Origin: Haliotis asinina
Lineage: Eukaryota; Mollusca; Gastropoda; Lepetellida; Haliotidae
Length of the DNA: 64,000 nucleotides
Assembly: GCF_037392515.1 (NCBI RefSeq)
Contig: NC_090280.1
Coordinates: 18,106,001-18,170,000 of the forward strand
Reading direction: 5' to 3'
The notes beneath the pieces were generated by a model that searched no databases, was not told the origin of the DNA, and saw only the letters and a list, made by a program, of their open reading frames with translations. Within the stretch, counting starts at the first letter, position 1, and the number at the start of each line of letters is the position of its first letter. The translations under genes were made by a program, and so were the position numbers. This document shows positions 4,449 to 56,687 of the stretch, piece after piece.

Positions 4449-4716
4449 CTGTGAAGGTCCCAGGGGAGAGTAGGCCTTCAGCAACCCATGCTTGCCATAA
4501 AAGGCGACTATGCTTGTCATAAGAGGCGACTAACGGGATCGGGTGGTCAGGCTCACTGACTTGGTTGACACATTTCATCGGTTCCCAATTGCGCAGATCG
4601 ATGCTCATGTTGTTGATCACTGGATTGTCTGGTCCAGACTCAACTATTTACAGCCCGCCGCCATATAGCTGGAATATTGATGAGTGCAGTGTAAAACTAA
4701 ACTCCCTAACTCAATC
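4449..4716 (+). repeat. SINE-like element S1, near full length
   Basis: This is a good representative of the commonest repeat in the window. It starts with GTGAAGGTCC, then CTTCAGCAACCCATGCTTGC, a segment with GGGATCGGGTGGTCAGGCTC, the segment GATGCTCATGTTGTTGATCA, and the tail TAGCTGGAATATTG followed by GTAAAACTAAACTC. Total length is about 270 bp. A Pol III head is not obvious; GGTTCCCAATTGCG could be a decayed B box. Confidence 0.8.
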
Positions 4717-5180: not shown

Positions 5181-5221
5181 TGTCAATCACTGTTTTTTCT
5201 TATCCATATTTGATTATTTAC

Positions 5222-5516: not shown

Positions 5517-5619
5517 TGACTGATGAAATTATATGCTGAATGCAGCAAACAACTAGAAACTCAAACCCATTGCTTAGAGTGAGTGAGCGATTGAGTTTGT
5601 GAGTTAGTGTGTGAGCGAG

Positions 5620-5768
5620 TGAGCTGGGTTTTATGCCGTTTTAGCAATATTCCAACAATATCACAGCAGGGGATCACCTGAAATAGGCTTCACACATTGT
5701 ACCCATGTAGGGAATCTAACCCAGATCTTCAGTATGGACGGACGCTTTAACCACTTGACTACCCCACT
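5620..5768 (-). repeat. SINE S2 copy
   Basis: The plus strand reads GTTTTATGCCGTTTTAGCAA at the tail side, ACCCATGTAGGGAATCTAAC at the B-box side, and CGCTTTAACCACTTGACTAC at the A-box side. It is an almost complete reversed copy, preceded at 5578-5620 by degenerate GTGAGTGAG tail repeats. Confidence 0.75.
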
Positions 5769-13995: not shown

Positions 13996-14403
13996 GGTGG
14001 AACCAAACACATGGTGCAGACACTTACATATATACTATCAAGAGAAAGTAGGGGATATTTGACTTACAAGATTGATAAAATATAAATGATGAAGCCACGG
14101 AGGAAATAGATGATGAGAAATGTAGGGAAAATGTGACCATTTATTCCATTCCTTTGGAAATGTTTCATCTATATGGATATATATTAGTTTTTCTCATGTA
14201 CATTGGCATTGATTAGTGGTATGCTTGCAAAATAGAGAATCCCCTACTTTTTGTGAGTGGTATATAATGTTGTGGTGAAACTGTGATCACAGGCTCTACA
14301 GTCTTTGACAATGGATCTTCCTTTCATTTGGGAATAGTCCCAAGTGCAGCTAGCTGTAGGTTAATACTGCTTGGTGATGGTCAAAAGACATTGAAAAAAT
14401 TCA

Positions 14404-17892: not shown

Positions 17893-20800
17893 CTGAAACA
17901 TAAACATGGACAGGGGTCACTATTTAGGGGGAAACAACCATTGCAATAACGATAGTCTGTTGCAACATACTACTGTGATAACAATAGTCTATTGTGACCA
18001 ACTATTGCAAAAGTTTTTTTCTCCCATTTGAAGTCATTTCCTAACCGAATGTCCTCTTTATATGAAATATAACACAAGCTGAAGAAGTGTCAGTCTCTTT
18101 TGATAAATGACAAGAAACTTGAAACTCATTAAATAACTCTTAACTCAGAGTGAATGAGCCTGATATTTCTTACATTTGTTACAGGGTATATATATATCCT
18201 GTTGTCACCCTGTATCATTCACACTGGAAAACGAGACCTGTGAAGGTCCTGTGAAGGTCCTGTGATAGAATAGGCCATCAGCAAACCATGCTTGCCATAA
18301 AAGACGACTATGCTTGTCAGAAGTGGCACCTAACGAGATCGGGTGGTTAGACTCGCTGACTTGGTTGACACATGTCATCGGTTCCCAATTGCACAGATCG
18401 ATGCTCATGTTGTTGGTCACTGGATTGTCTGGTCCAGACTCGATTGTTTACAGACCGCCACCATATAGCTGGAATATTGCTGAGTGCGGCGTAAAGCTAA
18501 ACTCACTCACTCACTTGAGAACGATACAAGAATCTGTATCGAAACTTCATGCTCTAGAATGAAAGAAGTTGTCATCCATATGTACTTGTTCTATCTGATA
18601 TTTCTTGCATTTTGTGCTGCACACGTATGAGTTAAGTCAGTTACTTAACAATCAGACATACTATCAATGTGTCAACAGTTTTTTGTTTCTACCATTGATT
18701 AATTGCCATTGAAGACTCAACAACTTAACTCATGGATATCAGTATCTGTCAACTGCCATGCAGCTGGGGGTGAAATGGTTTCTGCGGTATTTTTGCCTTC
18801 AGTCTGGTATACCGTTACTTAAAAAAAAAATTTGGTACTTTCTGATTTTGTACCATCATTTTATGAACTTGTAAAACCTTTTCTAAAATGTCTAGAAATT
18901 GAATCAGTTTGTTAAAATCTATGCCTTTCTTTGCAAGACAATTTTCCCGGCAGTAAGTTCTCATTTACTGAACTGAAACTACCAAAAGAAAGACTTTGCA
19001 CTGCAATATGTACCATATGAGTGTAACGTTTCACCCCTATATGCAGCGCTGTCATCTACTGTACAAGTCATGCAATAAGAAAGGGTTGATACTTTATGGG
19101 CAACGACTTCTTTATTATTAATATCAATGTTAAGCAAGAGTCACTCATCCTTGAAATGGTATAAAAATCCATATCAAAATTATATTATGATGCAAAATTT
19201 TGGGACACATGTTGAAAATAATGTTCTAAATACTGCATAATGGTACTACCGCATGTAGTCTGTTCTATTTTTGACAAATGTGTAACTTCTGGCATACCTG
19301 AAGCCGATATCAGAAGCTTGGGATTGTGAATGGACGAAGCTGTTCAGCATCTCATCCTGACTTACATCTGGGTGTGCCTGGCACCGGTTGAACTTGTAGG
19401 TCCTGGCTGTAAGGAGTGAGGGAGTGAGTGACTGATGGAGGGAGCAGGGTTTTACATCACTTTTAGCAATATTAGTGCAATATCACACACCGCATTCCAT
19501 GTTTAAAATAAATTGTTTTGTATGGAAGAATTTTGGAGGTAGTGAATGTGTGTGTTGGTTTTGGAGTGAAAGCAAGGGGAGGTGTGGAAAGATTTTGAAA
19601 CGTGTGAATGTGGGAAGGGGTTTCGAGTGAGTTAATGTGCGGGCAAGTTTTTGGAGGTACAGAGTGAGTGAATGTGTGGTATGATTTGGAGTGAATGTGT
19701 GGATGGATTTTGAGTAACTGTATGACAGCATGTGGATGGTTTTATTAAGTCATTGAAATGGTTGGTTGTTGTTGTTCAACATGTCATTGAGTAATTTCAT
19801 TCAAGGTGACAATCTCAACTGTGATGATTCAAGACTGCATGACCATTAATTGTTAAAAGAGTTTAGCTCACACATGCAGCTTTGTAAAGTGACACAAAAT
19901 ATTTCTTTCTTCCTTGAAGTTGTTACTAAGATGCAAGTAAAACCCCACAAATGTCCCCATGCCTTAAGAGTGAGTGAACAAGTTTAGTTTATAATCAAGT
20001 CTGGACCAGACAATCCAGTGATCGACAGCAGGACCATCGATCTGTGCAATTGGGAACTGATGACATGTGTTAACCACGTCAGTGAGCCTGACCACCCTAT
20101 CACGTTAATCACCTATTATGACAAGTATAGTTGCCTTTTATGGCAAGCAAGGGTTGCTGCAGGCCTATTTTACCTCGAACCATCATGCCTTAAGAGAGCC
20201 TAGGAGTCCAAAGATTAACATAGTTGTATCTTGCACATGTCAGTTAATTGAAAATGTAATCCATACAATATTTCTGAATCTTCATTTTACATGTTTAATG
20301 GAACAAGGCTATAAGACGTTTACAAGGAAGGTGACTTTCCATTAGTTTAAGACAGCAAGAGTTACTTCCCTTGATTCTACACATTTCAGTGTAGCTGAAA
20401 TTGGTCTTGTGCAACTTAAACTTGTCAAAAAGATCCAATGGGATCAGGTGGTCAGGCTTAATGACTTGGTCGATACAAAAATTGATCCTCATGCTTTTGA
20501 CCACTGGACTGTTTGGTCCAGACTCAATTATTTGCAGACCGCTGTCCAATAGCTGGAATATTGCTGAGTTCGGCATTAAACAAAACAGAACACCAAAGAA
20601 AAAAAGGTCGTTGACACTTTCCAAAAAGTGTTAAAAAAACTGAGAAAGATGTGTTTACCCTGGCTAATGTCAACAATCCTGTAAGTATATAGTCAACACT
20701 TACATTTAATTAACTTGACATCTGTGTCATAGCTGTGACAAATTAAATTGTCTTCATCAGGTCGAATGAATGATTTCGCTATTTGGCCATATAAAACGGT

Positions 20801-23800
20801 AAGAATATTCTTGTTTGTCATTAATAATGCCCGAACCAAATATTCAACCTGAGCCAAAGATTTATTTATTTTTTAAACCATAGAAAATGCAACTTTGACT
20901 CTCAAAATTTGCATGAATTTTCTGAGTTTTAAATTTCGAGAGAAAAGGTTATATTTCCACAGATATCAATGAGTTTTTGACAAAAAATAAACTCAAACAT
21001 TAAAATACAATCTGGTTGGCTGACCAATATTTTTTTTTTAAAATGTATAAGAAACCAAATTTTTTTTATGTGTCCTTAGTATACTCCACCATCACCCAGA
21101 CACACACAAAAAAATCATACCCAGGTACATTATAAGGAATATCAGCATTATAGCAGTCTCCATGGCAACAACAATCTGGATATAGTTTTCTTTCTTTAGT
21201 ATGTAGCACTTGTCTGGTGTGTGGCAGTACTCCTCCAAGATCCTGGTGACTATCAGCAGCAACGCATTCCCTGGGAATGGACAGACATATAATTACAGTG
21301 GAAGGTGTCTAAAACGGCACTCATCGGAATGAAGAAATAGTTTGGTTTTGACGTGACACATTGTAGAGATGACACGGTGTCCTACAACTAGGAGTGAACC
21401 AGTTTCGTCACTCTCAAATACGTGGCTGTATCAACTGGTTCTCTCGATTATTCTCAATAAAATGTGTCAACTCAATAATTACATGTACAAGAACAGCCAA
21501 ACTGAACTAAGATTATCTATGTTATTTTTATCGGCAACAATGTAGTTTAAGTCAGGATTAATTGGCTCCTCGCAACATGCCAGATTAGACAATGCTGATA
21601 AATACATGAACACATACTTGGCCAGCTTATTTCATGCCATCATCTGGAATTGACAGCCGCCGGCTTACAGAGCGTTTATATGTTGATAATGTACTAACGA
21701 CAGATGAGACTGAGATTTTATGCCAGTGTTGACAACTTGCTGGATTGGACAGCTGCTGGTTATGACAGCTTCATCTGTACACATATTCTGCAGCTAAAGC
21801 TAATTGACAGCCGCCGGCTTACAGAGCGTTTATATGTTGATAATGTACTAATGACAGATGAGACTGAGATTTTATGCCAGTGTTGACAACTTGCTGGATT
21901 GGACAGCTGCTGGTTATGACAGCTTCATCTGTACACATATTCTGCAGCTAAAGCTAATTGACAGCCGCCGGCTTACAGAGCGTTTATATGTTGATAATGT
22001 ACTAACGACAGATGAGACTGAGATTTTATGCCAGTGTTGACAACTTGCTGGATTGGACAGCTGCTGGTTATGACAGCTTCATCTGTACACATATTCTGCA
22101 GCTAAAGCTAATTGACAGCCGCCGGCTTACAGAGCGTTTATATGTTGATAATGTACTAATGACAGATGAGACTGAGATTTTATGCCAGTGTTGACAACTT
22201 GCTGGATTGGACAGCTGCTGGTTATGACAGCTTCATCTGTACACATATTCTGCAGCTAAAGCTAATTGACAGCCGCCGGCTTACAGAGCGTTTATATGTT
22301 GATAATGTACTAACGACAGATGAGACTGAGATTTTATGCCAGTGTTGACAACTTGCTGGATTGGACAGCTGCTGGTTATGACAGCTTCATCTGTACACAT
22401 ATTCTGCAGCTAAAGCTAATTGACAGCCGCCGGCTTACAGAGCGTTTATATGTTGATAATGTACTAATGACAGATGAGACTGAGATTTTATGCCAGTGTT
22501 GACAACTTGCTGGATTGGACAGCTGCTGGTTATGACAGCTTCATCTGTACACATATTCTGCAGCTAAAGCTAATTGACAGCCGCCGGCTTACAGAGCGTT
22601 TATATGTTGATAATGTACTAATGACAGATGAGACTGAGATTTTATGCCAGTGTTGACAACTTGCTGGATTGGACAGCTGCTGGTTATGACAGCTTCATCT
22701 GTACACATATTCTGCAGCTAAAGCTAATTGACAGCTGCCGGCTTACAGAGCGTTTATATGTTGATAATGTACTAACGACAGATGAGACTGAGATTTTATG
22801 CCAGTGTTGACAACTTGCTGGATTGGACAGCTGCTGGTTATGACAGCTTCATCTGTACACATATTCTGCAGCTAAAGCTAACTATGACTATAATAAACCA
22901 TAATGTTAGTTTGCTACAACTGTAGTTTGTTCTGTGCATTTATTAATATAAACAGCCCCTATCTTTGGATGTCTATCTGAAAGGCACATTGTATTATCAA
23001 TCTAAACTCTGTGGGAATCATACAACTCCTGCAGCCACAAAGCGCACTGATTTCATGTGGCTTTCCATTCCATACGAGGTTCATGTTCAAAGCTGGGTGT
23101 ACTGGGATACATGGTCACTGTACTTTGTCCAAGTTTACTGCACACTGCTGTATCTGCAACTGCATGTACGGTCATGTCTATTTAATCCGACATGGCCTGT
23201 TGCACAACAAATTGTCGGATTAAGAAGGATGTCGGACTAAATAATCGAGAATGAATTCTGTTTATCTAATTTGTTACCAACAAAAACATTGGATAAAGCC
23301 CACTGTCCGATAAACAGAGGTCCTATTAATGACACTTGACTGTACATTCATCAGTCCCTCCTGGATTCTGTGGCAAATTTTTAAGAATTCTGTGACAAAT
23401 TTAAGCAAATTGTGCACCCTATTTTTCAATATTCTGCTAAACTTTCGGCGATTAAAACATTTAGGAAAAACAACGAAAACAATATACAGACCTTCAAAGT
23501 TTAATTCTCAAACACAGATGTAAAGTTAAGTCGACAGTACACATCTCATCTTTAGTAAGTTTGATTACAAAGCACCAACACCTTTCTGTGTGTTTGAGAA
23601 TTAAACACTCACTCAAAGTGATTTCTCTCCTCTCATTCGTAACTTTGTTGCAGATGAACAACTTCCAGTTTCATGCAAATAACAATTTTATATTTAAACT
23701 AAATCTGAAATATTTTCGTTTTTCAAAATGATTGATTTTGAGAACGTAATTGCAGTGTCAAATTCATCTAATATTATTTGAAAGATACCTAAAACATTTT

Positions 23801-26800
23801 ATGTATTTATTAATAAAGTATCTTTAATCATGATTATTTTGAAAATGTTGTCACAGTAAATATGTCAGTTCGTTATATGTGTAACCGATCCTACTTTTGA
23901 TATATTTCGTCAGTCAGTTTTCACTCTGTTATTAAAATAAGCAAATTCTGCGGCAGAAAAGCGGCAAATTCTGCACGGATTCTGCAAGAAAATGCGTTTT
24001 CCATGGACCAGATGTTTTTCTGCATGGAAAGGTAAATTCTGCAATTTTTTCTGCAAACGCGCAGAATCCAGGAGGGACTGATTCAAGTGACCACCATTTG
24101 GTCATCTACCAACAGATTCATAGGTTCTTATAGTAGCACATGGTTGTGTACTGTACACTAGGGGCTGTAACATGACTGAAAGAGTCTGCACACAAAGCTG
24201 ACTCCAAAGTTTTACTTCTGAACACAGGTGGGCTTGATCTCAACACCTAAAGTTTGCTTGATCACTAGCCTGGTGCCTTAAACAGCTTGCAGACCACATC
24301 CTTTCATTTCTATTAAAGTAGACAACTAGTTCTAATCTGCTATAACAGAGAGTCATGTTTCTATAAAATCATGAATAATGTTGTTGGGACAACTGAAATG
24401 GTTGCACTATCAGCTTATCTATCAGGCCACATTTTTCCTCATTGTTCACAGTCAAAGGGAGGTAATTGAAGGTCTTGTGTGATCTTCCTTAGATTCTCAT
24501 GGCCAAAATTAAGGTCACCTGCAGCTTTTCTGAGAAAATGGAAACCTATGGAAACCAACAACTTAAAATACACACTAGTTCATCCATTCAAGCTGCAAAC
24601 TTACAACAAATATATCTCTGTTAGCTGAGGGTTAAACATTCGGTGTATGGAAATGTTTTGAATGTTTTAAGAACAGAGAGGGTAAGCAAGTCTATGCCTT
24701 TATATGCTCACACGATACCATGACAAGTTCTTGTGTGAAGATTATATTTTCATTCTGGATATCCTATCTAGGCCTGTTTTGGAAGAATATCATCATCGCT
24801 GACTTTATATCTGATGTGGCCACTGAATTTCGTAGTGACACAGGTTTGCGTTCATCCATTCATGGTTCATGGTGTTGTGTAATTTCACAATACAACTGTC
24901 AATTGTGAAACACCTTGTATTCCTGTGTCTACAAACTTGAAGCGTCTGAGATAGGGAAAAGGGAAAAGGAAAAATGGCAAACTTAAACACTGTAAAAAAT
25001 AATTCATCAATTTCTGTTTCATTGATTGATGTAATTATCAAATCTAAAAACTGGTTTACTGCTATCACAAAACTACTGCAACGGTTGACAAAGACAAAAA
25101 TGACAAAAATCTGCAAATAGCAAAAGGCACCACTTTAGTTCATGTTTGATATATCTACCATGTTTCATTGAAAGATATCAAACAGTTTTTCAGCTGTGCT
25201 CAGGAAACGAAGCACATCCCTTCATTTTAGACAAAGTTCAAATCATTTCCATAGAAACCGAGAAAAATAAAAATGACAAGTCTGCAAATAGCAAAGGGCA
25301 CCACGTTCTGTGCTGTTTGATATATGTGCCATTTTTTTTAAAATACTGAACTGTTTTTGAGTTATGCGCTGGAAATTAAATGACTGCGGACGGACACATG
25401 GATGGGCAGGTGGACGGATGGACAGACAGACCTTGCACTACATGCCGGGGGATAATAAAATGTTTAATAATCGGGCTCAAACTTTATTACAGACTGCTAT
25501 GAAACAACTGGAACATTGCTGAATGTAGTTTTCAGCAACAGATGTCTGTATTAGTTTGACTGTATTACCTCCAGATGTTATCAAGAATGGCATTCTGCGA
25601 ATATTTTTTGTCCTCCTGTAGAACTCCAGATATCCATTGAGCCTGTTGACATAGTGCTGTTGTCGGTAGTATCTGTCGAATGCCAGGAAGATGAACCAGA
25701 AAGCCCCATGGATGTAGATTACAAGCGCTATGTCGTCTGCCCCGCACTTGTTCTGCAGGCAGAACACGGGGATGATAAACGAGCCAGTCAGCAGAGCAAT
25801 CTGAAATGGAGGAAGTGACATACTGTAAATCATGATATTTTTGCCTGTGGCGACCAACAGACGTTTTGGGGCCATAATATTTTTGTGACTTGCCTAACTC
25901 TCAAAACTTAGATTAAAAACTTCACTGAAACTGAAAGTTCTTCCTGAAGTAAAAACAATCACATGTTAAAGGTTGCCACTAATTTTGAAGTCTGTTCAGT
26001 CGGCATGTGTGCAATCAGTGATGTTTTCCTAAAAACAACACAAGCTTATAGAGTAGTTAGTGAGTGTGTGAATGAGTTAATATTTAACGTCACATCGGCA
26101 ATATCTCAGCCATATCGTGACGAGAACATTTAATACTAAAATGAAATATATGTCTATTATAAAACCTGTCAACGAAGGACAGTAAAACAACTAGGATATC
26201 ACATATGGGATTAAAACTAGCATGAAGAGTTGAAACTAATATCACTATTTAGATAATACAATATGAAATCAGGCTATAGATCTCCAACAACCAAAGGTAG
26301 ATCACCATACTAGGGACCATGGGGACTTCCAGTACCTTTGCTACCTGCATGGACCCTAGTTGGATCTACACCATCCCTTCAGCTGCTGGAGAGTGTACAG
26401 AATGCTAGCCAAAATTAAAATAACATGAATACTACGATTAAAAACCTGATAGACTTAAATTTACTTTGAATGTTTGTGGACTTACATACCCTCTCAGGAG
26501 GACAATACTTTTACAGTACTTCAACCCCCTTTGAGGATACAGCCACTAACAATTCTAGTTACAAATTTAAACTACCAATCATTAAAATACATCTATCTAC
26601 AGAATATGTTATTCAAATCTCAACCATGAAATCGATTTCCATTAAAAAACCAATAATTAAATGACAACTGACACTGGTAAAAAGGTCCTTGACACTTTTG
26701 ACATTAAAATATTTATCCCTTGTGATGGAGAATTCAACACAGTCAAGCAGAATATGCTTGACCGTAACTCTCTCATCACAAGGGATACAAAACGGAGGAT

Positions 26801-29800
26801 CCTCACCTTTTAACAGATACTTATGGGTATATCTTGTATGGCCAATACGACATCGTCTCATGATTACCTCTTCAAATCTGGACTGACAACCCAAGTAGGT
26901 ATAACCAATGTAGGGTTTTATTTCATGTAATTTGTTGATGCCTACTTGAGTGTCCCACGTCTCCACATCAGATCATGGATGTAAGCTCTAATGCTAGCTT
27001 TGTAGTCAGAATTAGGAATAAGAAGTGGCGTCACAGATTTGTTGAGTGCTGCTTTCGCAGCAAGGTCAGCCACTGTGTTCCCAGAAATGCCTACGTGGCT
27101 GAGTAACCAACATAAGATGATGTCGTACTGGCCAGTAGCAAGATCATTATACAATTTGATAATTTCGATTAAAAGTGGATGTTTACATGATAAGTTTTTA
27201 ATAGCCTGAAGACAAGAAAGAGAGTCTGAACAGATTGTGTACTGTTTATGTTGAGGATGTTTCTGAATATATTTAAGAGCCATTAATATTGCGTAAAATA
27301 GAGCTATTATCCGGTAATCTAGAAGATACTGTTCTGGATCCAATGACAGTGGCACAAGCCACTGCGCCACCGTCTTTGGACCCATCTGTAAATAAGGATT
27401 TATAATTGCTGTATTTATGTTTTAATTGATTATCTTCTTGTTTATATTGTAATTCATTAGTTTCTGATTTTTTTAATGTGGTTAATGTTAGGTCAACTTG
27501 TGGCCTAACCAACTGCCAAGGAGAAGAAAGAAGACGGGAGGGAGCTATGTTTTCCAGGTCAATGCCAGAAGCAGCAAAAATGGCTTAATTCTAAGCCCAA
27601 GAGAAGGAACAAGAGAAGACTTTTTGTTATACAAATCCTCATATAGAGGCTTGAAGACGCGGTTATATGCAGGGTCAGATTCGTAAGAATATAGTTTTGT
27701 GATATATTGTAAAGATAATTTTATGCGGCGTTGTGTAAGAGACAGTTCAACTGCCTCAACGTAGAGGCTGTCAACAGGAGACGTTCTAAAGGAGCCAAGA
27801 CAAAGTCTTAGACCTTGGTGATGGAGAGAATCTAATAGTTTTAAGTTGCTTTTGCAAGCTCCACCACAAACGATGGAGCCATAATCAAGCTTTGAGCGGA
27901 CAAGTGATCTGTATAGGTGTAGGAGAGTAGCTTGATCTCCTCCCCAACTTGAATTAGAAATGACTTTCAATAAATCAAGTTCCTTCAGGCATTTAGATTT
28001 TAGGGATTTGATATGGGGGAGAAACGTTAAACGTGAGTCAAAAATCAATCCCAAGAACTTGGCCTCTTTTATAACTTTGACGGGAGTGCCATTTAAAAAC
28101 AGTTCTGCGTCTTTATGCAGTTTGTATTTTCTACAGAAATGTATACAATTGGTTTTCGACTTAGAAAATGAAAAGCCATTTTCCAGACACCATTTATTTA
28201 TTTTGTTTAAGCACAACTGCAGTTGCCGTTCAATAGTATGCATATTTTTACCCCGACAAGAAATCATCCACATAAAGTGATCCATCAATTGAATCATTTA
28301 AAACCTTGGATCAACTGTTTACCTTGATACTAAAAAGTGTGACAGACAAAATACTGCCTTGTGGAACACTCTGATCCTGATTATAATGGTCAGACAGGGT
28401 TGAACCCACTCGGACTTGAAACTGCCTGTGTTGTAAAAACTGTTATATAAAAAGAGGTAAACGACCCCTTAAACCGAAGTCATGTAAATCCTTTAAAATG
28501 CCACGCTTCCAGGTTGTATCATATGCTTTCCCGAGATCAAAGAAGATCGATACTGCATGTTGTTTATTTACAATAGCATTTTTAACGAAGGATTCCAATC
28601 GTATCAGGTGATCAATGGTACTACGATTTTTCCTAAAACCACAATGAATATTTGCTATAAGATTATTGGTTTCAAGATACCGTGTTAATCTATTGTTTAC
28701 CATTCGATCCATGGTTTTACAGACACAAGTTGTTAAGGAGATTGGTCTGTAGTTAGACGGATCAGTATGATCCCGACCAGGCTTCGGAATAGGGACTAAC
28801 TTTGCATTACGCCAGGAAGGTGGGAAATTACCTTAAGTCCCTATCTGATAAAAAATTTCTAAAAGGATTTCTTAACACGATTCAGGCAAATGTTTCAAGA
28901 GCTGATAATGTATGTTATCAGTCCCTGTTGCTGTATCATGAGCTTGCTCAAGGGCAGTATGGAGCTCATGTAACGAGAATAATTCGTTGTAATCTTCACC
29001 GTTGTCTGAGTTAAAATTGATTCTTTTCTTTTGTTGTTTCTCATACTTTTGAAACTCAGGGACATAATTAGATGATGAAGAATGTTTGGCAAGTGTTTCG
29101 CCAATTTTATTGGCTATGTCATCCTTATTAGTCAATACATTATCACCATCCTTTAGATGCTGAACAATCGATTAAAATCCTTTACCTTTTATCCTTTGGA
29201 TTATGTTCCACACCTTTGAAATTGGTGTGCGAGAATTTATTTGGGAAATATAGTTCCTCCAAGACTGACGCTTATTCTGTTTAAAGGCATGTCTAGCCTT
29301 GACATTGAAGATTTCAACTTTGTTTAAATTATGGACTGTGGGATGTTTGCGAAAATATTTTAGCAGCTTTCTTCCTACTCTTTCTGGCCTGTTTACACTC
29401 ATTATTAAACCATGGTTTGCGAATGTGTGGAGCTGCAGAGGACTGTGGAATTGCTCTGTCAGCTATGTTATTTAGAAGATCTGAAAACGACAGTATAGGA
29501 TCTTGACTGTTCCTGAAAAGATCAGGCTTCAAGTTTTCAACACACAGCATTTCATATAATGACCAATCAGCCCTGGCGAAGTTCCTTCTTGATACAGGTG
29601 GATCATCACCAGGGTTGCTGGTTTTGAGAATTGTGGGGAAGTGATCACTCCAACATAGGTCATCATGGACCATCCACTCAAATTCAGTATATAAGTTTGA
29701 ATCTGTAAGTGACAGATCCAGGGAAGAATATGTTCCTGTAGCTGGATGTAGATAAGTGGCTGAATCATTGGTGAAAATGCATACATTATTATCAGAAATA

Positions 29801-32323
29801 AATTCCTCACGGATTTTACCTTTATTAATAGTGTCGGCACTTCCCCAAAGCGGACTGTGTCCGTTAAGGTCACCCATGATGATAAATGGCTTTGGAAGTT
29901 GATCATATAGATTTTGAAGATCCGACTGTCTGATATTAGAAGACGGAGGGATATATCAGCTGTACAGAGTCAATGCAACATGCAGGGTCAGTCGAACCGC
30001 TACAGCCTGAAGATTGGTACAAAGTGGAACAGGGCTGTGTATTATACCCTGTCGTACTAAGATAGAAGCAGCTCCAGTTGCTCTCTCTCCTGGGGGAGAA
30101 AAGAAATGATAATTGCTGTGTTGTCGTAAAGTGAAGTTATCTGTGGATTTTAAATATGTCTCTTGGAGACATATGGCTGACGGCTGAAAATCTTGTATCA
30201 GTAATTGTATCTCACTGAAGTTAATTTTTCTCCGCCTATCCTGTGAGAATGGAGTTACCTCCATAACTAGAGGCCCAAATGAGTTTTCAAGAGGAACCTC
30301 TGGAACTGGGGGGACAACAGGTAGTTTATCCCTATTAATCCTTTTTCCTTTCTTCCTTTTAGATTTCTCAATGGCTGGTTGCAAAACAGTTGCTTGAGAT
30401 GATGTCTCGGATTCAGTTTCATCAGTCTGAGAACCAGATGTAGATTGAATAACAGTGGCAGTAGGTATAGTGGCTGAAATTGAAGAGATGGGTGTTGCTG
30501 TCTTGACCCAAGAGAAGTCAGTCTGAGATGCAGTAGAGGACACTACCACAGAGAGGTAAACTGCCGTAGCGTAGGTAATGTTTGGAGGAGTAGAGGTTTG
30601 ATTGAACATTTTTTTGGCATTCATGTACGAGACATTTTTCTCACATTTAAGCTTCATAATCTGTGATTCACGCTGGAACATAGGACAGGATTTTGAAGAA
30701 GCAGGATGTACACCATTACAGTTTGCCCACTTGTAATCTTTCTACCATCATGACTATTGCCACAACAATAACATACGACAGAGTTCCAGCAAGACTGTGA
30801 GCCATGTCCAAAATGCTGACATTTGTAACATCGGAGTGGATTTGGGATATCTTATAGAGTAACTTTTATTCGTGTATCCCTTGTCTGACATGTGACACAT
30901 GAGTACATGATGTGTTGTCTACATTTGTTGTTGATTAGGTGAACTAGTGAACAATAAAGAGCTAATGAGACTTTTTATTGGTTGATTGTTCATTCTGTTT
31001 CACCAGCACATTGCGTCATCATATTTTTGCAAGTTTAAGTCTTTCCCAATTTTTGCAATAATATCAAGCTCGAAAAAATTTTGTGATTTACATGATTTGT
31101 ATTATCATTTTACACTACAAGGACGAGGTTACAACATTAGGTAATTCAAAATGTTTATCTCGGGTTCTCATGTACAAAGTGATCTCAGCTCCCATGCCTT
31201 AATGTAGACTTATGACAATCATAACTCTGAGGCCATGGTAACTCCCGTACCTTAATATACACTTTCTGGTAGTCATGCTGCTAAGGTGATTGCAAATCCT
31301 ATACCAAAACACAGACCTACAACAGTGGTAACTATAACCCCTTTACCTTAACAAAGCCTTATAACAGTTGTAGCAACCGGTTGATTGTACATTCTGTACC
31401 TTAACACAGACCTACAACAGTCACAGCACTGAGGTGACCGTAAATCCTTTACCTTAATACAGACCTACAACAGTCACAGCACTGAGGTGACCGTAAATCC
31501 TGTACCTTAACACAGACCTACAACAGTCACAGCACTGAGGTGACCGTAAATCCTGTACCTTAACACAGACCTACAACAGTCACAGCACTGAGGTGACCGT
31601 AAATCCTACACCTTAACACAGACATACAACAGTCATAGTGGTAGGGTGAATGTAACTCCATACTCTAACATATACTTACGACAGTTGTAACTTTGTGCAA
31701 GATGATCGTAATTCCCATACCTTAACATAGGCCTGTGAAGGTATGGGGTAGAATAGGCCTTCAGGAACCCATGTTTGTCATGAAAGGCAACTAACAGGAC
31801 CGGGTGGTCAGGCTTGCTGACTTGGTTGATTCCTAAGTGCGCAGATCATTGCTCATGCTGTAGTTCACTGGAATGTCTGATTGTCTGACTCGATCACTTA
31901 GAGACCACTGCTATATAGCTGGAATATTGCTGAGTGCGGAGTAAAAGTAATCTCATTCAACAACAGACACAGTACTAAGGTGAATGCAACTCTTACAGCT
32001 TAATGCAGACTTATGACAACGTAACTATAATGCATGGTGATTTTAACTCCCATTCAACAAACACATACGACAGTCACACAAGCTGATCGTAACACTTATC
32101 CCTTATATAGACTTGCAACAGTTGTAGCACAAAGGTCGTTTTGGACAAAAGAACTCGGGTGCAAGGTACTCACTGACAGCAATATCTGGCAAATGATGGC
32201 CCACAGGGTGTTGATCTTCCTGAACACAATCTCCCCATCCCCTGTGAGTCCCACATGGTCACGCAGGAGTTCTTCTGTGTCTGATGTCTGAATTGAGTTC
32301 TGCTCATCATTGAAGAAATACCC
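17754..32323 (-). CDS. TMEM192: TMEM192, lysosomal transmembrane protein 192 (five exons)
   Basis: Joining 32174-32323, 25569-25800, 21121-21270, 19298-19406 and 17754-17892 on the minus strand gives 259 residues plus stop, with every splice site GT/AG and every phase consistent. With the candidate first exon (36186-36239) it is 277 aa; human TMEM192 is 271. Matches to the family as I remember it: [21 protein letters not shown] (TM1), [13 protein letters not shown] after TM2, the SGGN motif before TM3, [13 protein letters not shown] (TM4), and the C-terminal coiled stretch [15 protein letters not shown] with [10 protein letters not shown]. An acidic dileucine signal, DTEELL, lies before TM1; in mammals such a motif sends the protein to lysosomes. 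The human C-terminal Cys thought to link dimers is absent. Introns are 1.4-6.4 kb and full of repeats, including a LINE in the sense direction. Function in molluscs is unknown; identity is confident. Confidence 0.9.
18238..18515 (+). repeat. SINE S1, near full length, in a TMEM192 intron
   Basis: It shows TGAAGGTCC, GCTTGCCATAAAAGACGACT, GATGCTCATGTTGTTGGTCA, then TAGCTGGAATATTGC and ACTCACTCACTCACTT. It lies antisense to the host gene. Confidence 0.85.
19298..19406 (-). CDS. TMEM192: TMEM192 exon
   Basis: The minus-strand exon runs from CCTTACAG/CCAGGACC to CTTCAG/GTATGCC. It encodes [20 protein letters not shown], then [17 protein letters not shown], the cytosolic stretch after TM4. Phases 1 and 2 at its borders fit both neighbours. 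Confidence 0.9.
19411..19495 (-). repeat. SINE S2 tail fragment
   Basis: The plus strand carries GTGAGTGACTG..., then GTTTTACATCACTTTTAGCA, the tail side of S2 in reverse. The head is absent; a degenerate minisatellite follows. Confidence 0.55.
19535..19735. repeat. Degenerate ~30-bp minisatellite
   Basis: Variants of GTGAATGTGTGGATGGATTT with GGAGTGA recur about seven times with many differences. A Thr/His/Ser-rich minus-strand frame across it is a product of the repeat. Confidence 0.5.
19969..20183 (-). repeat. SINE S1 with internal deletion
   Basis: The plus strand shows GAGTGAGTGAACAAGTTTAG (tail), then jumps to AGTCTGGACCAGACAATCCA and runs to TTTTATGGCAAGCAAGGGTT and AGGCCTATTTTACC (head side). 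The TAGCTGGAATATT segment is missing. Confidence 0.75.
20436..20590 (+). repeat. SINE S1, 5'-truncated
   Basis: It begins at GGGATCAGGTGGTCAGGCTT and keeps GGTCCAGACTCAATTATTTG and AATAGCTGGAATATTGC. The CACTCAC tail is replaced by ACAAAACAGAAC. Confidence 0.7.
21121..21270 (-). CDS. TMEM192: TMEM192 exon with TM3-TM4
   Basis: The exon runs from CATTCCCAG/GGAATGCG to TACCTGG/GTATGA. It encodes [20 protein letters not shown], then [20 protein letters not shown] and [10 protein letters not shown]. It contains one hydrophobic helix, a Cys-bearing loop and a second helix, as in TM3 and TM4 of the family. Confidence 0.9.
21296..21648 (+). mobile_element. Left part of a Tc1-like MITE, feeding the 154-bp array
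   Basis: After a TA, CAGTGGAAGGTGTCTAAAAC and GGCACTCAT match the end of the solitary MITE at 43969-44142 (reverse-complemented CAGTGAAAGGTGTCTAAACC, GGCACTCAT). Similarity continues through ATTGTAGAG. The matching right half is what makes up the tandem array that follows. Confidence 0.6.
21649..22880. repeat. 154-bp tandem array, exactly eight units
   Basis: The 1232 bp are 8.0 units of 154 bp, nearly identical. Each begins ATTGACAGCCGCCGGCTTAC. The main variable site is ACTAACGAC versus ACTAATGAC. In order the units read C,T,C,T,C,T,T,C, so the array probably grew as 308-bp dimers with later disturbance; the last unit also has GCTGCCGG. The part TTTTATGCCAGTGTTGACAA, GGATTGGACAGCTGCTGG, ACAGCTTCATCTGTA matches the right half of the MITE at 43969-44142 and its TA. 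Repeated 60-codon frames here are by-products, because 154 is not a multiple of three. Confidence 0.95.
22985..23165 (-). repeat. SINE S3 body fragment
   Basis: Read on the minus strand it has ACTTGGACAAAGTAC, TATCCCAGTACACCCAGCTT, GCAGGAGTTGTATGATTCCC and GAGTTTAGATTGA. These correspond to GTCCCAGTCCACCCAGCTGT and GAGTTTAGATTGA at 62470-62610. Confidence 0.7.
23352..24080. mobile_element. Non-autonomous DNA transposon, family CAGTCCCTCC, copy 2
   Basis: The ends are CAGTCCCTCCTGGATTC and, reversed, CAGTCCCTCCTGGATTC: perfect 17-bp inverted repeats. It is flanked by ATTCAT and ATTCAA, a 5-of-6 match consistent with a 6-bp duplication. At 729 bp it is slightly longer than copy 1 (11245-11925) and alignable along most of its length. 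There is no coding frame. Confidence 0.82.
24100..24295 (-). repeat. SINE S3 head and middle module
   Basis: On the minus strand: a tRNA-like head AAGGCACCAGGCTAGTGATC with GAGATCAAGCC as B box, then CAGACTCTTTCAGTCATG, CCCTAGTGTACAGTACACAA and GACCAAATGGTGGTCAC. The middle module matches 54390-54500 and 62325-62435. It abuts the transposon ending at 24080. Confidence 0.7.
25060..25445. repeat. Dispersed repeat with GGAC-rich end
   Basis: The segment CTGCAAATAGCAAA-GGCACCAC occurs twice (about 25110 and 25285), each followed by a TTTGATATAT stretch. It ends in GACTGCGGACGGACACATGG and further GGAC/GGATGG units. I recognise this kind of sequence as common in mollusc genomes, but cannot name the family. 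Confidence 0.45.
25569..25800 (-). CDS. TMEM192: TMEM192 exon with TM1 end and TM2
   Basis: The exon runs from TCCATTTCAG/ATTGCTCTGC to TCTGGAG/GTAATA. It encodes [60 protein letters not shown] and [17 protein letters not shown]. The last part is the family's most recognisable stretch. Phase 0 at the 5' side and phase 1 at the 3' side fit the neighbours. Confidence 0.9.
26060..26612 (-). repeat. LINE 3' UTR and tail
   Basis: Noncoding region after the LINE stop codon. Shared blocks with 41290-41776 include GGACCATGGGGACT, GTACCTTTGCTA, TACACCATCCCTTCA and AACGTCACATCGGCAATAT (plus strand). On the minus strand it ends GGCTGAGATATTGCC, GATGTGACGTTAAA, TATTAACTCATTCAC. Confidence 0.85.
26613..26966 (-). 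pseudogene. LINE ORF2 C-terminal zinc-finger segment
   Basis: The translation contains [20 protein letters not shown], then [20 protein letters not shown]. This is the C-x2-C...H-x4-C finger found after RNase H in I-type LINEs. It ends FMVEI and stop, probably the true ORF2 end. It is out of frame with the RNase H segment upstream. Confidence 0.85.
26942..27512 (-). pseudogene. LINE RNase H domain, two frames
   Basis: LFTDGSKDG (first Asp) is in one frame. [21 protein letters not shown] (Asp) and [20 protein letters not shown] (final Asp) are in another, so a frameshift lies between about 27300 and 27390. The Glu expected in the ALKYI helix is not evident. RNase H in ORF2 supports the I-superfamily assignment. 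Confidence 0.85.
27545..28800 (-). pseudogene. LINE reverse transcriptase domain
   Basis: Visible motifs in order: [51 protein letters not shown] (first catalytic Asp), [23 protein letters not shown] (catalytic YVDD at 28263-28274), and [16 protein letters not shown] after it. Stops and frame changes interrupt it near 28443, 28300 and 28260. The C-terminal part 27545-28240 is a long clean frame. Confidence 0.9.
28872..29402 (-). pseudogene. LINE ORF2 linker between endonuclease and RT
   Basis: Segments reading [20 protein letters not shown] with [13 protein letters not shown], and [20 protein letters not shown] with [18 protein letters not shown], are the usual linker and RT N-terminus of jockey/I-type elements. 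They lie in different frames. Confidence 0.8.
29329..29877 (-). pseudogene. LINE AP endonuclease, C-terminal half
   Basis: [13 protein letters not shown] carries the GDLNGH motif of the endonuclease fold. [10 protein letters not shown] and WSDHFPTIL follow, with the catalytic Asp-His pair (SDHFP). This is a clean 182-codon frame. Confidence 0.88.
29956..30860 (-). pseudogene. LINE ORF1 end joined to start of endonuclease
   Basis: At 30690-30860 three zinc knuckles are readable: [24 protein letters not shown] and [16 protein letters not shown], followed by [19 protein letters not shown], a usual ORF1 ending block. The clean frame 30681-29956 then runs through a Ser/Thr-rich linker and, with no stop, into [20 protein letters not shown] and QET, which belongs to the ORF2 endonuclease. 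The usual endonuclease start (QWNCRG) is missing, so a deletion seems to have fused the two ORFs. Confidence 0.8.
31190..32135. repeat. 53-bp minisatellite with diverged flanks
   Basis: The core 31396-31615 has units of 53 bp (accttaa at 31451, 31504, 31557, 31610) built on CAGACCTACAACAGTCACAG and CACTGAGGTGACCGTAAATC. Units become steadily more diverged outward to about 31190 and 31720, and again from 31965 to about 32130 beyond an inserted SINE. It lies entirely in a TMEM192 intron, next to the exon at 32174. Confidence 0.9.
31731..31962 (+). repeat. SINE S1 inserted in the 53-bp array
   Basis: CTGTGAAGGTATGGGGTAGA, CTTCAGGAACCCATG, GGTGGTCAGGCTTGCTGACT and TATAGCTGGAATATTGCTGA are all present. 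It has a short internal deletion. Diverged 53-bp units lie on both sides, so the array predates the SINE. Confidence 0.85.
32174..32323 (-). CDS. TMEM192: TMEM192 exon with sorting signal and TM1
   Basis: The exon runs from GTTTGCTTTCAG/GGGTATTTC to CTGTCA/GTGAGTACC and is 50 codons in phase 0 at both ends. It encodes [40 protein letters not shown] and [10 protein letters not shown]. The D-x3-LL motif (DTEELL) precedes TM1. It has no start codon, so a further upstream exon must supply it. Confidence 0.9.
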
Positions 32324-35745: not shown

Positions 35746-36027
35746 GTGAGTGAGTGAGTTTAGTTTTACGCCGTACTCAGCAATATTCCAGCTATATGGC
35801 AGCGGTCTGTAAATATTCGAGTCTGGACCAAACAATACAGTGATCAACAGCATGAGCATCAATCTGCGTAATTGGGAACGAATGATGTGTCAACAATGAC
35901 CTGTCAACAATGACAAGTCAGCGAGCCTGACCAGCCGATTCCATTAGTCGCTTCCTACGACAAGCATAGTCGGCTTTCATGGCAAGCATGGGTTACTGAA
36001 GGCCTATTCTACCCCGGACCTTCACGT
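35746..36027 (-). repeat. SINE S1, full length, minus strand
   Basis: The plus strand reads GTGAGTGAGTTTAGTTTTAC, GCAATATTCCAGCTATATGG, then the S1 body to GCATGGGTTACTGAAGGCCT and ATTCTACCCCGGACCTTCAC. It contains a small internal duplication of ATGACCTGTCAACA. Confidence 0.85.
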
Positions 36028-39622: not shown

Positions 39623-39904
39623 ATTCATATGTTGGAAAAATGGTTCATCTGAGGAAAAGTCAAGTACCGATCTGTTGATTTTTAATGATAATATGTTTCC
39701 GGTAGCTGCCTTTGTATAATGTTGTGCTTCCTTTTTTCGTTTAAAAATACGTTTTTCTAATTACGTTGAGCAAAACGGTTTTTTCTGAATGTAGCATTCG
39801 ATTGTTGTCAAACAGTATATTTCATCCAACATCCACAGCAGGTAATTAAACATATGATAAATTCTACAGTTTTTTGTGCTCGAAAGTTTATAAAGATAAT
39901 AGAG

Positions 39905-40063
39905 ACGGTGGGGAAACCTGCTGATTAATTCGTTTGCTCGCCACCCCGAAAGCCCGGGTTCGATTCCCCGCTTGGGTACAATTTGTGAAGCCCATTTCTG
40001 GTGTCCCCCGTCGTGGTGATTCTGGAATATTGCTAAAAGCGGTTTAAAACTAAACTCACTCAC
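39905..40063 (+). repeat. SINE S2, full length
   Basis: The A-box side is decayed. The B box GGTTCGATTCC at 39958-39968 is intact. The tail TCTGGAATATTGCTAAAAGC, GGTTTAAAACTAAACTCACT, CACC is one of the best-preserved S2 tails in the window. Confidence 0.85.
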
Positions 40064-40806: not shown

Positions 40807-42996
40807 CTGAAAAGATATGAATAGTTTGTTTGAACTCTGTGTTGACAAATGTCACCTGTGTGGAGCACCATTCAGGGAAACGTTTCATGTAGGTTGTACA
40901 ACAAAGCTGCCTCCACGAAAAGAGTTCAGCAAAAGTAAAACTTCCCTTATAAAGGATTAACTTGTTTGTGGATTATGACAATTGGAGTCCTACCCTTATA
41001 TGCTCCTGGTACCCCTAGCTGTGGATTATGATTAAGGGTGGAGAAAAACGTCTCATCGGGAACTTCGGTTTTCTTCACCCACTCCAACAGATCTCGGGCG
41101 GTTGAGTTGTGCAGGACGTAGTCTACAAATCCCCGACTGGCGGCAATGTGGACGGCCCCCTTTACAGTGGTGATGTTGTGAGGAGGTGGCCCGGCATGGC
41201 GCCATCTGTGTTTATTAGCTCTGGAAGAAATACGGTAGACTACCGTTATAGCGAACTCAAAGTGACCACAAAGTGTATCTCGCTATAGCCGGAGTTCGTG
41301 AGTGGGTTCGTGAGTTCGTGAGTTCGTGAGTTCGTGAGTGAGTTAATGTTTAACGTCACATCGGCAATATTTCAGAGATATCGAGACGGGAACATCTAAC
41401 ACTGAAATGTAATATTTGTTTATAATAAAAAGAAACTGTCGACAAAGGACAGTAAAATAACTAGAACATCACAATTAGAATTAAAACTAGCATAAAAATT
41501 TAAAACAAATATCACTATTTTGGACAATATTATATGTTTAAAACAGGTTATAGATCTCCAACAACTGGCGGTAAATCACCAGACTAGGGACCATGGGGAC
41601 TAACAGTACCTTTGCTATCTGCATTGTTCCTAGTTGGATTTACACCATCCCTTCACCTGCCGGCAATTGTAGGAAATGTTAACCACAATTAAAATACAAG
41701 CATACTACTTCCAACAATCTTGGTCATTTTAAATTTACTTAAAACGTTTTGGGACTTACGTACCCACTCAGGAGGAACCTGGATGAGGATCAGTCAAGTT
41801 TGCTGAAGAATGTTTGTAAGGTTCGGGAATCTGGTGGACGATCAGTAAGGTTTGCTAAACGACATTTTTAAGGTTCGAGAATCTGGTTGACAATCAGTAA
41901 GGGTTGCTGAAAAATATTTGTTAGGTCCAGGAATCCGGTTTTCAACCAGGATTTTCGATTCTACACGGCAATAGAAGCAGCAGCACCCTTCTATACCCTG
42001 GCGCTATATCCCACTAACGAACCACTATCACAACACCGAGTGTTAGTGGTTAGTTAGTTAGTGTTAGTGGTTAGAAATGTCTTTTATCTGTCCCCTGTTC
42101 AGTCACTAAAGGTCATCACATTTCTGAAGGTATTACCTCTTTATCGTACCCTCCAGATCATTGGCTCCATCGTAGGCTTTCAGAATCTTCACCAACTGTG
42201 CATTTGTTTTTAAAGGGAATTCCTGTCCGGTGAGATTAATGAAATATTTCCACTTGTGATGCCACAGATCTTTCATGCAAATAAGTTCAGGTTCCAGAAC
42301 TGTGAATTTTCCCCAGTGGACGCTCACAGAACGTGAGGATAGAAACACATTGTCAAAGCACTTGGCCAATGACGTCATCGCCTGTTTGACATCCGGTTGT
42401 GCTTTCGTGTCCATGTGGATGCAATAAAAGTTTTGTGGTCTGTAGATAGCTCGGAGAAGACGTTCAACCTGATTGGCATCTTTGAACATTACAATACTGA
42501 AAGCGATAGGGAATTCCTCCTCCTCTTTTGTCAAAGAGTCTGTTATATAACCTTTTTCTATTTTAAACGCGTCACATTTTTCAGTGGCAACACTGATATT
42601 AAGAGGAGGCCTAACGTGATTCATCTTGGCTTTGGATATTGCCTTTTGTTCCCCGTCTATGAGTAGTTTACAGTCATATGTGCTAACCCTCCTGGGTACA
42701 TAGCGGAAATGTGCTTTTGTTGTGATGGAAGGTCGGATGACGTTCTTGAATAACTGGTCCTTAATCTGTACCGTAACATCACGGTCCATATCTGTCAAAG
42801 ATTTAAATAACAGTCCTTGTAGATTTACTGACGTGTTTGTGATGTTAATAAACTTAGGAATAAAATATCGTGGGCGTGTGAGGTCAAGCCAGCGTTTGTC
42901 CGTAACTATGTCGCGGTAGAAGTACGTACTGCCGATCAACCCCAAACAGAGAATTCCAGCCCCGGTGTATACCAGTATTGCACCCCTTGGTGCCAT
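40499..42996 (-). CDS. Beta-1,6-N-acetylglucosaminyltransferase, GT14 (GCNT-like)
   Basis: Three exons (42137-42996, 40994-41220, 40499-40806) join in phase to 464 residues. The enzyme would add GlcNAc in beta-1,6 linkage to O-glycan cores (core-2 branch) or related acceptors in the Golgi. It has type II topology: a short N-terminus, a membrane anchor at residues 5-26 (GAILVYTGAGILCLGLIGST), a stem, then the GT14 domain from about residue 195. Family motifs: FPIAFSIVMFKD, LLRAIYRPQNFYCIHMDTKA, ELICMKDL, WKYFINLTGQEFPLKTN, GAVHIAASRGFVDYVLHN, LLEWVKKTEVPDE with the Glu near residue 343 at the catalytic position, RSVCVFGVGDL and LFANKFYWD. The start MAPRG is chosen because an acceptor (AAATTTCAG) precedes it at 43024. 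Which GCNT subtype it is cannot be told, so no symbol is given. Confidence 0.9.
40994..41220 (-). CDS. GCNT-like gene, middle exon
   Basis: Acceptor TTTCTTCCAG/AGCTAATAAA, donor TATAAGG/GTAGGA. It encodes RANKHRWRHAGPPP, GAVHIAASRGFVDYVLHN and LLEWVKKTEVPDETFFSTL, the region carrying the catalytic Glu in the family. Confidence 0.9.
41288..41776 (-). mobile_element. 5'-truncated LINE copy: 3' end only
   Basis: About 430 bp match the 3' UTR of the LINE at 26060-30900 in the same orientation. The minus-strand end reads GATGTGACGTTAAACATTAA and CTCACTCAC, then about six 8-bp units of TCACGAAC type (plus strand GTTCGTGA, 41288-41337). Truncation on the 5' side and a short repetitive 3' tail are what LINE insertion leaves. 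It sits in GCNT intron 1. Confidence 0.85.
41786..41943. repeat. ~60-bp imperfect tandem repeat, three units
   Basis: ATCAGTAAGGTTTGCT..., AGGTTCGGGAATCTGGT and variants recur at about 41795, 41848 and 41893. The copies are diverged. They lie in GCNT intron 1. Confidence 0.75.
42137..42996 (-). CDS. GCNT-like gene, first coding exon
   Basis: It starts MAPRGAILVYTG with the membrane anchor and runs to NDLEGTIK with donor AAAGAG/GTAATA. It includes the stem and the first half of the GT14 domain. The 27 bases up to the acceptor at 43024 would be 5' UTR, so at least one upstream noncoding exon is expected. A segment with a good donor (GAAAG/GTACGT at 45486) is a candidate. Confidence 0.9.
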
Positions 42997-43156
42997 TGTC
43001 GGGGTCGTGGCTGTGCTGAAGTCCTGAAATTTAGAGGATTGAGTTATAAATATATGGAAGACAAACGACATACATTTGACAATGGTTTGAGTGCTTCGAA
43101 CATCAAACTGTGGAAATGTGTGGAAGCGAGTCGATGAGTAGGGACGTGAATGAGTG

Positions 43157-46570: not shown

Positions 46571-46582
46571 CTATGTATAACA

Positions 46583-46745
46583 GCGGTGGTAGTGTGGCCT
46601 CGTGATTAAAGCGTTGGACGATCATGCCGATCACCCAGGTTCGATTCCACACATGGGCACAATGTGTGAAGCCAATTTCTGGTGTCCCTTGCCATGGTAT
46701 TGATGGAGTGTAGCTAAAATCGGCGTAAACCTAAACTCACTCACT
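46583..46745 (+). repeat. SINE S2, full length
   Basis: A-box region TGTGGCCTCGTGATTAAAGC; B box GGTTCGATTCC at 46639-46649; body AATGTGTGAAGCCAATTTCT; tail AAACCTAAACTCACTCACT. All parts are in the expected order. Confidence 0.85.
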
Positions 46746-50667: not shown

Positions 50668-50813
50668 AGGTGAAGTGAATTTAGCTTTACGTCGCTTTCA
50701 GCAATATTCCAGCCATATCACGGAGGGGGACACAAGAATTGGGTTTCACACATTGTAGGGACTCGAACCCGTGATGAACGAACGCTTTAACCACTAGGCT
50801 ACCACACCGCCCT
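50668..50813 (-). repeat. SINE S2, full length
   Basis: The plus strand TTAGCTTTACGTCGCTTTCA, GCAATATTCCAGCCATATCA, TGTAGGGACTCGAACCCGTG, AACGCTTTAACCACTAGGCT, ACCACACCGCCCTT. The B box (GGGTTCGAGTCC on the minus strand) is well kept. Confidence 0.85.
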
Positions 50814-55862: not shown

Positions 55863-56425
55863 CAAAAACCAAACCATGAATGTTCCGAGGTTCAATGATC
55901 TTGAAGCCCCATAAATATTTGGGTTCTGTTATCAAGGCACAGGAAAACATCGGAAATGCAGAAACACCACGCCCCTATTGGATGTTTACATATGCAGATT
56001 AGATGTTCATCTTTGCAGTGAGTTCTGGAACATTCCCAAAAATCTTTTGACCTCTATCTTTGCACGAATCAAAACTTACTCCATCTGTGTGTTGGCTGTT
56101 CTGAAAATATAACAAGAAGTGATGTATTTTACACTCCGCTACATATTACACATGGCAAAACATGACATTGATATGTTACTGTTATATTGTATCTGAATAT
56201 AAATGAATGTAAGTTTCATTATTGTTTTGGTTTGAAAAATATTTACAACATTAAATTCTTCATGTAATTCCTAACTATTTTAAACATAAAACTATGAAGA
56301 TACGTTACCTGTGGTACAAACGTTAGACTTTGACTTATACCGCCTGCTGCAGCTGAAATAGTAATACGTCGATAATAGCGAGTCATTTCAAACTCCCGGT
56401 TAAACGAGTGAGAGAGTGAATGAAT

Positions 56426-56687
56426 GAGTGAGTTTAGTCTTACGCCGCACTCAGCAATATTCCAGCTATATGACGGCTGTCTGTAAATAAATGAGTCTGG
56501 ACCCGACAATCCTGTGATCAACAGCATGTATGCATCGATCTACGCAACTGGGAACCGATGACATGTGTCAACCAAGTCAGCGAGCCTGACCACCCGATCC
56601 CGTTAGTCGTCTCTTACGACAAGCAGAGTCGCCTTTTATGGCAAGCATGAGTTGCTGAAGGGCTATTCTACCCCGGTCCTTCACGGA
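56426..56687 (-). repeat. SINE S1, full length
   Basis: The plus strand AGTGAGTTTAGTCTTACGCC, GCACTCAGCAATATTCCAGC, TATATGACGG, the complete body, then TTTTATGGCAAGCATGAGTT and CTACCCCGGTCCTTCACGG. One of the best-preserved S1 copies. Confidence 0.88.

Follow-up and report, generated by a model that had tools for sequence, protein, structure and literature searches.

LINE and SINE copies in the window

The window, meaning the whole stretch of 64,000 nucleotides of Haliotis asinina DNA that was analysed, holds two copies of a LINE, both on the minus strand and 80% identical over 457 bp (copies ending at 26062 and 41329). In the longer copy an ORF1-like stretch reaches to about position 30851, beyond the endonuclease piece. 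The recognisable parts are as follows.

26062..30851, minus strand: decayed LINE copy of an RNase-H-bearing family of I-superfamily type, with an uncertain 5' limit
26068..26123, minus strand: LINE 3' tail, with a predicted two-part hairpin (26088-26122), a linker and the first ACTC-type repeats
26613..26972, minus strand: C-terminal part of the LINE, with a CxxC...H...C motif as read by eye
26942..27421, minus strand: RNase H piece of the LINE (PF00075, E 6.7e-4, under the cut-off)
27545..28297, minus strand: C-terminal piece of the LINE reverse transcriptase, alone without a Pfam match and with at least 150 matches in the genome
28443..28832, minus strand: N-terminal piece of the LINE reverse transcriptase (PF00078, E 8.4e-16)
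29329..29955, minus strand: endonuclease piece of the LINE (PF14529, E 2.6e-16)
41329..41779, minus strand: second LINE copy, 5'-truncated, with its tail at 41334-41389

A search of NCBIfam with the LINE pieces of the window gave nothing close to the cut-off, and a search of solved structures with its RNase H piece gave no match. Two SINE families, S1 and S2, are interspersed in the same stretch, where 6.7% of the window falls in profile matches to S1 and 3.7% in matches to S2, the tails being counted in both values. Copies referred to below include:

18249..18510, plus strand: best preserved S1 copy, with its tail at 18455-18510
4449..4709, plus strand: S1 copy with a 12-nt target-site duplication carrying one mismatch
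35750..36026, minus strand: S1 copy with a flanking 7-nt repeat, CTTGAAC
56425..56686, minus strand: S1 copy
39901..40063, plus strand: S2 copy whose tail starts at 40008
46582..46744, plus strand: S2 copy
50674..50813, minus strand: S2 copy, with a tail second only to that at 40008 among S2 copies in its likeness to the LINE
5616..5767, minus strand: S2 copy

Across the genome the exact 30-nt core of the S1 tail was counted 4939 times, against 0 for its reversed control. Tail matches found in 284 kb numbered 115: the LINE accounts for 62 of them, S1 for 30 and S2 for 12, two fit both LINE and S1, and nine fit none of the three. Judged by eye, these nine seem to be weak matches, fragments of S1 type, and LINE copies that are nested or consist of the tail only. 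Exact tail patterns found no match in collections of viral contigs and genome contigs, nor were the tail letters found in published text.

A 3' tail common to the LINE and both SINEs

It was proposed in the sequence-only reading that the LINE, S1 and S2 share one 3' end of about 40 bp. All the tail strings quoted there are present, with the minus-strand LINE end at 26123-26062 and the S1 and S2 tails reading as given, and the second LINE copy, ending at 41329, has the same end. The common end was borne out but its length was not, since the similarity extends over about 56 nt. When consensus tails of 56 nt are compared without gaps, the LINE is identical to S1 at 39/56 positions and to S2 at 38/56, and the two SINEs agree with each other at 50/56. 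The LINE and S1 consensus tails reach a score of 29 (shuffles: mean 7.0, maximum 16) and the LINE and S2 tails one of 25 (mean 7.3, maximum 15), and none of 5000 shuffles attained the score in either case. Leaving out the terminal ACTCACTCAC, that is, the last ten bases, the scores were reached by 0/5000 shuffles for S1 and 2/5000 for S2, so that the sharing of the tail goes beyond simple repeats both with and without ACTCACTCAC. The single LINE copies of the window score 23 and 27 against S1, and 20 and 24 against S2; similarly, a blastn search of the window with an S1 copy matched both LINE ends at 75% and 74% identity (E 6e-6 and 2e-5). Beyond the two LINE ends, the window contains 14 stretches of 56 nt with at least 31 identities to the LINE tail, and all 14 lie in S1 or S2 copies or, at 43871, in a fragment of an S1-type tail.

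The profile behind the LINE consensus had absorbed an S1 tail in addition to two LINE copies. The consensus obtained is nevertheless identical, letter for letter, to the tails of five independent genome copies (L031, L032, L033, L038 and L043), and the comparison between LINE and SINE tails stands for this reason. Moreover, the ends do not diverge once more copies are aligned, an outcome named in advance as contrary to a shared tail: the pattern is kept by 21 S1, 9 S2 and 67 LINE tails, most of the latter coming from loci picked by their tail, with 19 of 20 copies picked by their reverse transcriptase as the independent sample.

SINE heads and marks of insertion

The two SINE families have different heads. 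The S2 consensus shows an A box (7/7, at position 14) and a B box (9/9, at 57) at the spacing found in tRNAs. In the S1 consensus no A box is followed by a B box at that spacing, the best candidates being A boxes of 6/7 (at 161 and 44) and B boxes of 6/9 (at 126, 81 and 14), and S1 was therefore rejected as a tRNA-derived SINE. An origin of the S1 head from the 5' region of the LINE was likewise discarded, the sole match being an S1 copy on the opposite strand. Even at E values up to 1, Rfam reported no tRNA in the window, and its two matches there lie under the gathering scores and outside S1 and S2. The only tRNA called by ARAGORN in the window, a tRNA-Ile(tat) at 13738-13833 on the plus strand, lies outside the listed S1 and S2 copies.

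A terminal ACTC repeat is common to the LINE, S1 and S2. Target-site duplications, which the sequence-only reading had proposed to look for along with shared tail repeats, mark some S1 copies and some 5'-truncated LINE copies, and are weakly attested for S2. Flanking repeats scoring at least 9 accompany 8 of 17 near-complete S1 copies, compared with 13/340 mismatched pairs of flanks; of these eight, six are perfect over 10-14 nt, another is 12 nt long and carries a mismatch, and the last consists of the ACTC repeat. For S2 a flanking repeat was seen in 1/14 copies versus 1/280 mismatched pairs. At the 3' ends of the LINE, repeats scoring at least 9 occur in 8/40 cases against 3.9% in the control, and about five of the eight are credible, given that one is the ACTC repeat, one lies off the insertion edge and two have the same flanks. 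The duplications, where present in S1 and truncated LINE copies, come after (ACTC)n. Because of its target-site duplications and fixed 5' start, S1 is a retroposon despite having no recognisable tRNA boxes.

The LINE family across the genome

The assembly searched comprises 1.14 Gb in 159 contigs. With the reverse transcriptase piece as query, 19,766 first-look candidates were obtained, and the 150 that were scored all had E values of 1.0e-134 or lower, many of them lying in open frames of 1224-1255 aa. The 3' flanks were taken from 20 copies chosen by their reverse transcriptase, without the tail as a criterion, and the tail appeared at the expected position in 19 of them, L035 being the sole copy without it. 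The tail of L034 stops after TTAACT; the remaining ones continue into ACTC-type repeats. The tail was also present in all four copies of this same family chosen by their RNase H. One copy with an open frame, L049, gave Pfam matches over the cut-offs for the endonuclease (PF14529, 2e-22), the reverse transcriptase (PF00078, 1.4e-36) and RNase H (PF00075, 3.1e-11), and thus unites in a single ORF2 the APE-type endonuclease, reverse transcriptase and RNase H by which I-superfamily LINEs are recognised. The element is an abundant and apparently young RNase-H family of I-superfamily type. Among viral contigs, no relative of its reverse transcriptase was confirmed.

Between the endonuclease and the reverse transcriptase, the ORF2 of L049 is basic, with K or R at 29 positions of residues 251-370, and contains PW followed by basic residues. 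By sequence alone, this stretch resembles the tail-binding region of L2-clade LINEs as presented in PMC4176376. A LINE-type tail at L013:453-521 departs from the rest: one U-A pair is replaced by C-G, part of the 3' half of the stem is repeated as an insertion, and the sequence upstream of the tail differs from the usual LINE 3' UTR.

Tails of other LINE families

In the RNase H search, 150 of 4297 first-look candidates were scored, and 3' flanks were taken from 20. Sixteen of these flanks belong to other families, and 14 of the 16 compare with the LINE, S1 and S2 tails at chance level (scores of 9-15, shuffled full tails reaching 16). As to the other two, the flank of L054 contains an S1 copy and that of L060 a separate 3' end of the window LINE family, as judged from its upstream letters. 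Similar scores (9-15 on the LINE strand) were given by five more flanks from the reverse transcriptase search, some of which may stop before the 3' end; that of L071 includes an S1 copy on the opposite strand. None of the 16 other RNase-H flanks and five further reverse transcriptase flanks sampled, of which only some extend to a 3' end that could be placed, matches the SINE tails by an end of its own. Among the families sampled, only that of the window LINE matches the SINE tails.

The 3' ends of five families could be placed from at least two copies each (family a, 4; b, 3/4; c, 3; d, 2; the window LINE family, 4), the flanks of the four others being L050-L053, L056-L058, L061-L063 and L064-L065. 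In every placed family a predicted bipartite hairpin peculiar to it is followed by a linker and then by a short repeat of its own, these repeats being AACG, TATC, ACCT/AACCT, ACTGAA (in one copy of family d) and the ACTC already described. Shuffle controls, made for the hairpins of family d and of the window LINE family, gave z values of -2.53 and -2.76. The architecture of the tail looks common across the RNase-H LINE families placed and its sequence family-specific, as far as these predicted folds indicate. Family d has CGTC...GACGTTAAAT in common with the window LINE family. In a region of about 395 kb (G000:C6:42279483-42674835) there are at least 15 RNase H matches of family a, ten of them in open frames of 1253 aa, which is possibly a tandem array.

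A genome-wide search for the 3' UTR motif of the window LINE family joined to an S1-type tail, run as an exact pattern that misses variants, found two places, both of S1 type by their upstream letters as read by eye.

A predicted conserved hairpin with compensated stems

The common tail of about 56 nt is predicted to form, in the LINE as in S1 and S2, a bipartite hairpin followed by an A-rich linker and (ACTC)n. The hairpin would comprise an outer stem of 6-7 bp, an internal loop, an inner stem of 4 bp (2-3 in S2) and a 9-nt loop, UGRAAUAUU. Folding the tails in search of a conserved stem-loop, as proposed in the sequence-only reading, returned the same minimum-energy hairpin for all three consensus tails, with z values of -2.67, -2.52 and -1.98 for the LINE, S1 and S2 tails folded singly. 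With its flanks, the window LINE tail at 26062 still forms the hairpin (z -1.43), and that of the second copy (41329) does not.

A close comparison of the LINE and S1 tails shows that six of twenty stem positions differ and that they amount to three compensated pairs (U-A/C-G, A-U/G-C and G-C/A-U), with none of the ten pairs broken and a loop identity of 8/9. When the LINE/S1 substitutions were placed at random, 44 of 400000 trials kept all pairs standard and had at least three double changes, a figure biased in favour of the structure in that the structure was derived from folding these very consensus tails. Between the LINE and S2 there are two double and two single changes that keep the pairing, and one of ten pairs is broken. 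Identity in the structural alignment is 44/57, or 77%.

A covariance model built from 24 SINE tails only, with the ACTC part left out, was applied to 13 LINE loci from the 20 picked by reverse transcriptase. It found 12 of the 13 at E < 0.01, with 27.7 bits for the five best, and L039 only at E 0.073. Once the pairing was removed from the model, the best five loci fell to 17.1 bits and 9/13 were reported; for L041 pairing adds little (18.4 versus 17.1 bits). In 63 distinct tails aligned to the model, an alignment that is fitted to it and hence leans to the structure, pairing is seen in 85.7% of the cells, where slid controls give 19.7-44.7%, and double changes occur in 68 cells, compared with 30.2 in shuffles (0/500 reaching this value). 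Two of the five measures taken on these tails were not above shuffles: pairs changed on both sides (205/500) and further pair types (384/500). Moreover, RNAalifold predicted no structure from the 24 SINE tails, which the decay of single copies would explain, and this null result lends no support to the hairpin. What emerges is a conserved stem-loop backed by covariation, against which stand the RNAalifold result on SINE copies and the one broken pair of S2. The compensated stem changes between the LINE and S1 argue that selection for the hairpin has continued.

Probable mobilisation by the LINE and alternative readings

As S1 and S2 end in nearly the same hairpin as an abundant LINE, they most likely spread by means of the copying enzyme of that LINE. 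The suggestion that both SINEs borrow its reverse transcriptase, already made from the letters of the window, gains from the shared tail, the compensated hairpin, the ACTC repeat, the target-site duplications and the abundance of the LINE in open-frame copies, and we consider it very probable that the ORF2 of this RNase-H-bearing lineage copies both SINEs, as non-autonomous retroposons, in trans. The ORF2 protein would bind the tail hairpin of its own RNA or of SINE RNA, presumably through the basic stretch between endonuclease and reverse transcriptase (around residues 251-370 in L049) as a candidate binding region. It might recognise the loop from its sequence and the stem from its shape, and target-primed reverse transcription would then begin in the ACTC repeats, alike on its own and on SINE RNA. 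A kept loop with a covarying stem is, by analogy, what would be predicted from the stem-by-shape, loop-by-sequence model of PMC4176376. Taking this further, the LINE may be of the stringent type, with an ORF2 that recognises the loop by its letters and the stem by its shape: the hairpin, with compensated stems, is carried by two SINE families whose heads are unrelated, one of them lacking a recognisable tRNA promoter, and hairpins and repeats recur in the five placed RNase-H families, so that this mode of recognition could be general for the group and extend beyond the L2 clade. We hold this extension tentatively, at somewhat short of an even chance.

Identity is modest, at only about 70-77%, and even 77% is lower than would be expected of a SINE and the LINE that copies it. 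A closer LINE may therefore be the direct partner, an unseen or extinct subfamily or sister with the SINE-type stem CGCCGC/GCGGCG, of which the window LINE would be only a relative. The LINE loop indeed varies among copies, L068 having the exact SINE loop TGGAATATT, and the tail at L013:453 has a SINE-like C-G pair where U-A is usual; yet no other sampled LINE flank has a SINE-type tail at its own end, and the exact search for a LINE 3' UTR joined to an S1 tail led to just those two S1-type places. This possibility, which would refine the main reading, deserves to be taken seriously, although on balance we doubt it.

It is unlikely, on the other hand, that the SINEs took their tail long ago and now use another LINE, so that the likeness would reflect common descent with no present mobilisation. 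LINEs can exchange tails, according to PMC8010984, and a clear target-site duplication was seen in only one of 14 S2 copies; against these points, the compensated LINE/S1 stems speak for continued selection on the hairpin, the ACTC repeat is still common to LINE and SINEs, and the other LINE families sampled offer no matching end. Finally, a chance likeness arising from ACTC repeats and AT-rich words, for which it may be said that the LINE, S1 and S2 all finish with 10 nt of repeat units, was rejected by the shuffle test and is scarcely conceivable: outside the repeat units the S1 tail surpasses all 5000 shuffles and the S2 tail all but two, and the covariance models were built without the ACTC repeats. 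The compensated pairs of the stem contradict it as well. Copying of S1 and S2 by the ORF2 of the LINE lineage is thus the reading that we prefer.

Comparison with known LINE/SINE pairs

The sharing of tails between SINEs and LINEs is itself well known. L2-clade LINEs are not known to carry RNase H, unlike the abalone LINE. Vingi elements are related to Ingi, of the I group. A common stem-loop 3' tail with a short 3' repeat is likewise found in the eel UnaSINE1/UnaSINE2-UnaL2 and zebrafish ZfL2-1/ZfL2-2 systems, the repeat of UnaL2 being TGTAA (PMC3747384) in place of ACTC. For two zebrafish L2-clade LINEs, PMC4176376 reports a general recognition of the stem and a specific one of the loop by ORF2, through its region between endonuclease and reverse transcriptase. 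I-group LINEs have few SINE partners in Table 1 of PMC3747384. One is Gecko, a tRNA SINE with an I-group tail, like S2, paired with the I-clade LINEs MosquI and I-74_AAe of the mosquito Aedes aegypti; it is the sole pair of Protostomes in that table and is likened to ours by description only. The other is the Anolis SINE2-1B_Acar/SINE2-1_Acar, whose tail comes from the LINE Vingi-2_Acar (same table), a vertebrate case that is again likened by description. The UnaL2 and ZfL2 systems were assayed in cells, the abalone pair being known from its sequence alone.

Nishihara and Matetovici, both in 2016, are said to have described molluscan SINE superfamilies (MetaSINE, MESC, Nin and V) with shared bodies and LINE-derived tails, and S1 or S2 may already be named among them. 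In Haliotis discus hannai, LINE/I is a signature, recently expanded element and SINEs make up 5.11% of the genome, the two not being linked to each other in the accessible portion of PMC5439488. In bivalves, a LINE donor was said to be known for only three of eight SINE families (PMC10294476). In this regard, a probable engine can now be named for two very common repeats, S1 and S2, and ready test constructs would be provided by the natural tails of the LINE and the SINEs, which are almost alike in the loop and have stem pairs exchanged.

Other features of the window

Six tandem arrays lie at 14333-15173 (29 bp), 37203-38084 (49 bp), 21648-23025 (154 bp), 5112-5581 (59 bp), 31311-31681 (53 bp) and 61163-61564 (67 bp). 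The 59-bp unit of the array at 5112-5581 resembles the middle of S1, and this array may therefore be a SINE-born satellite. On the minus strand, an open frame at 42133-43182 encodes a Core-2/I-branching enzyme domain (PF02485, E 6.6e-28) and is probably a host gene.
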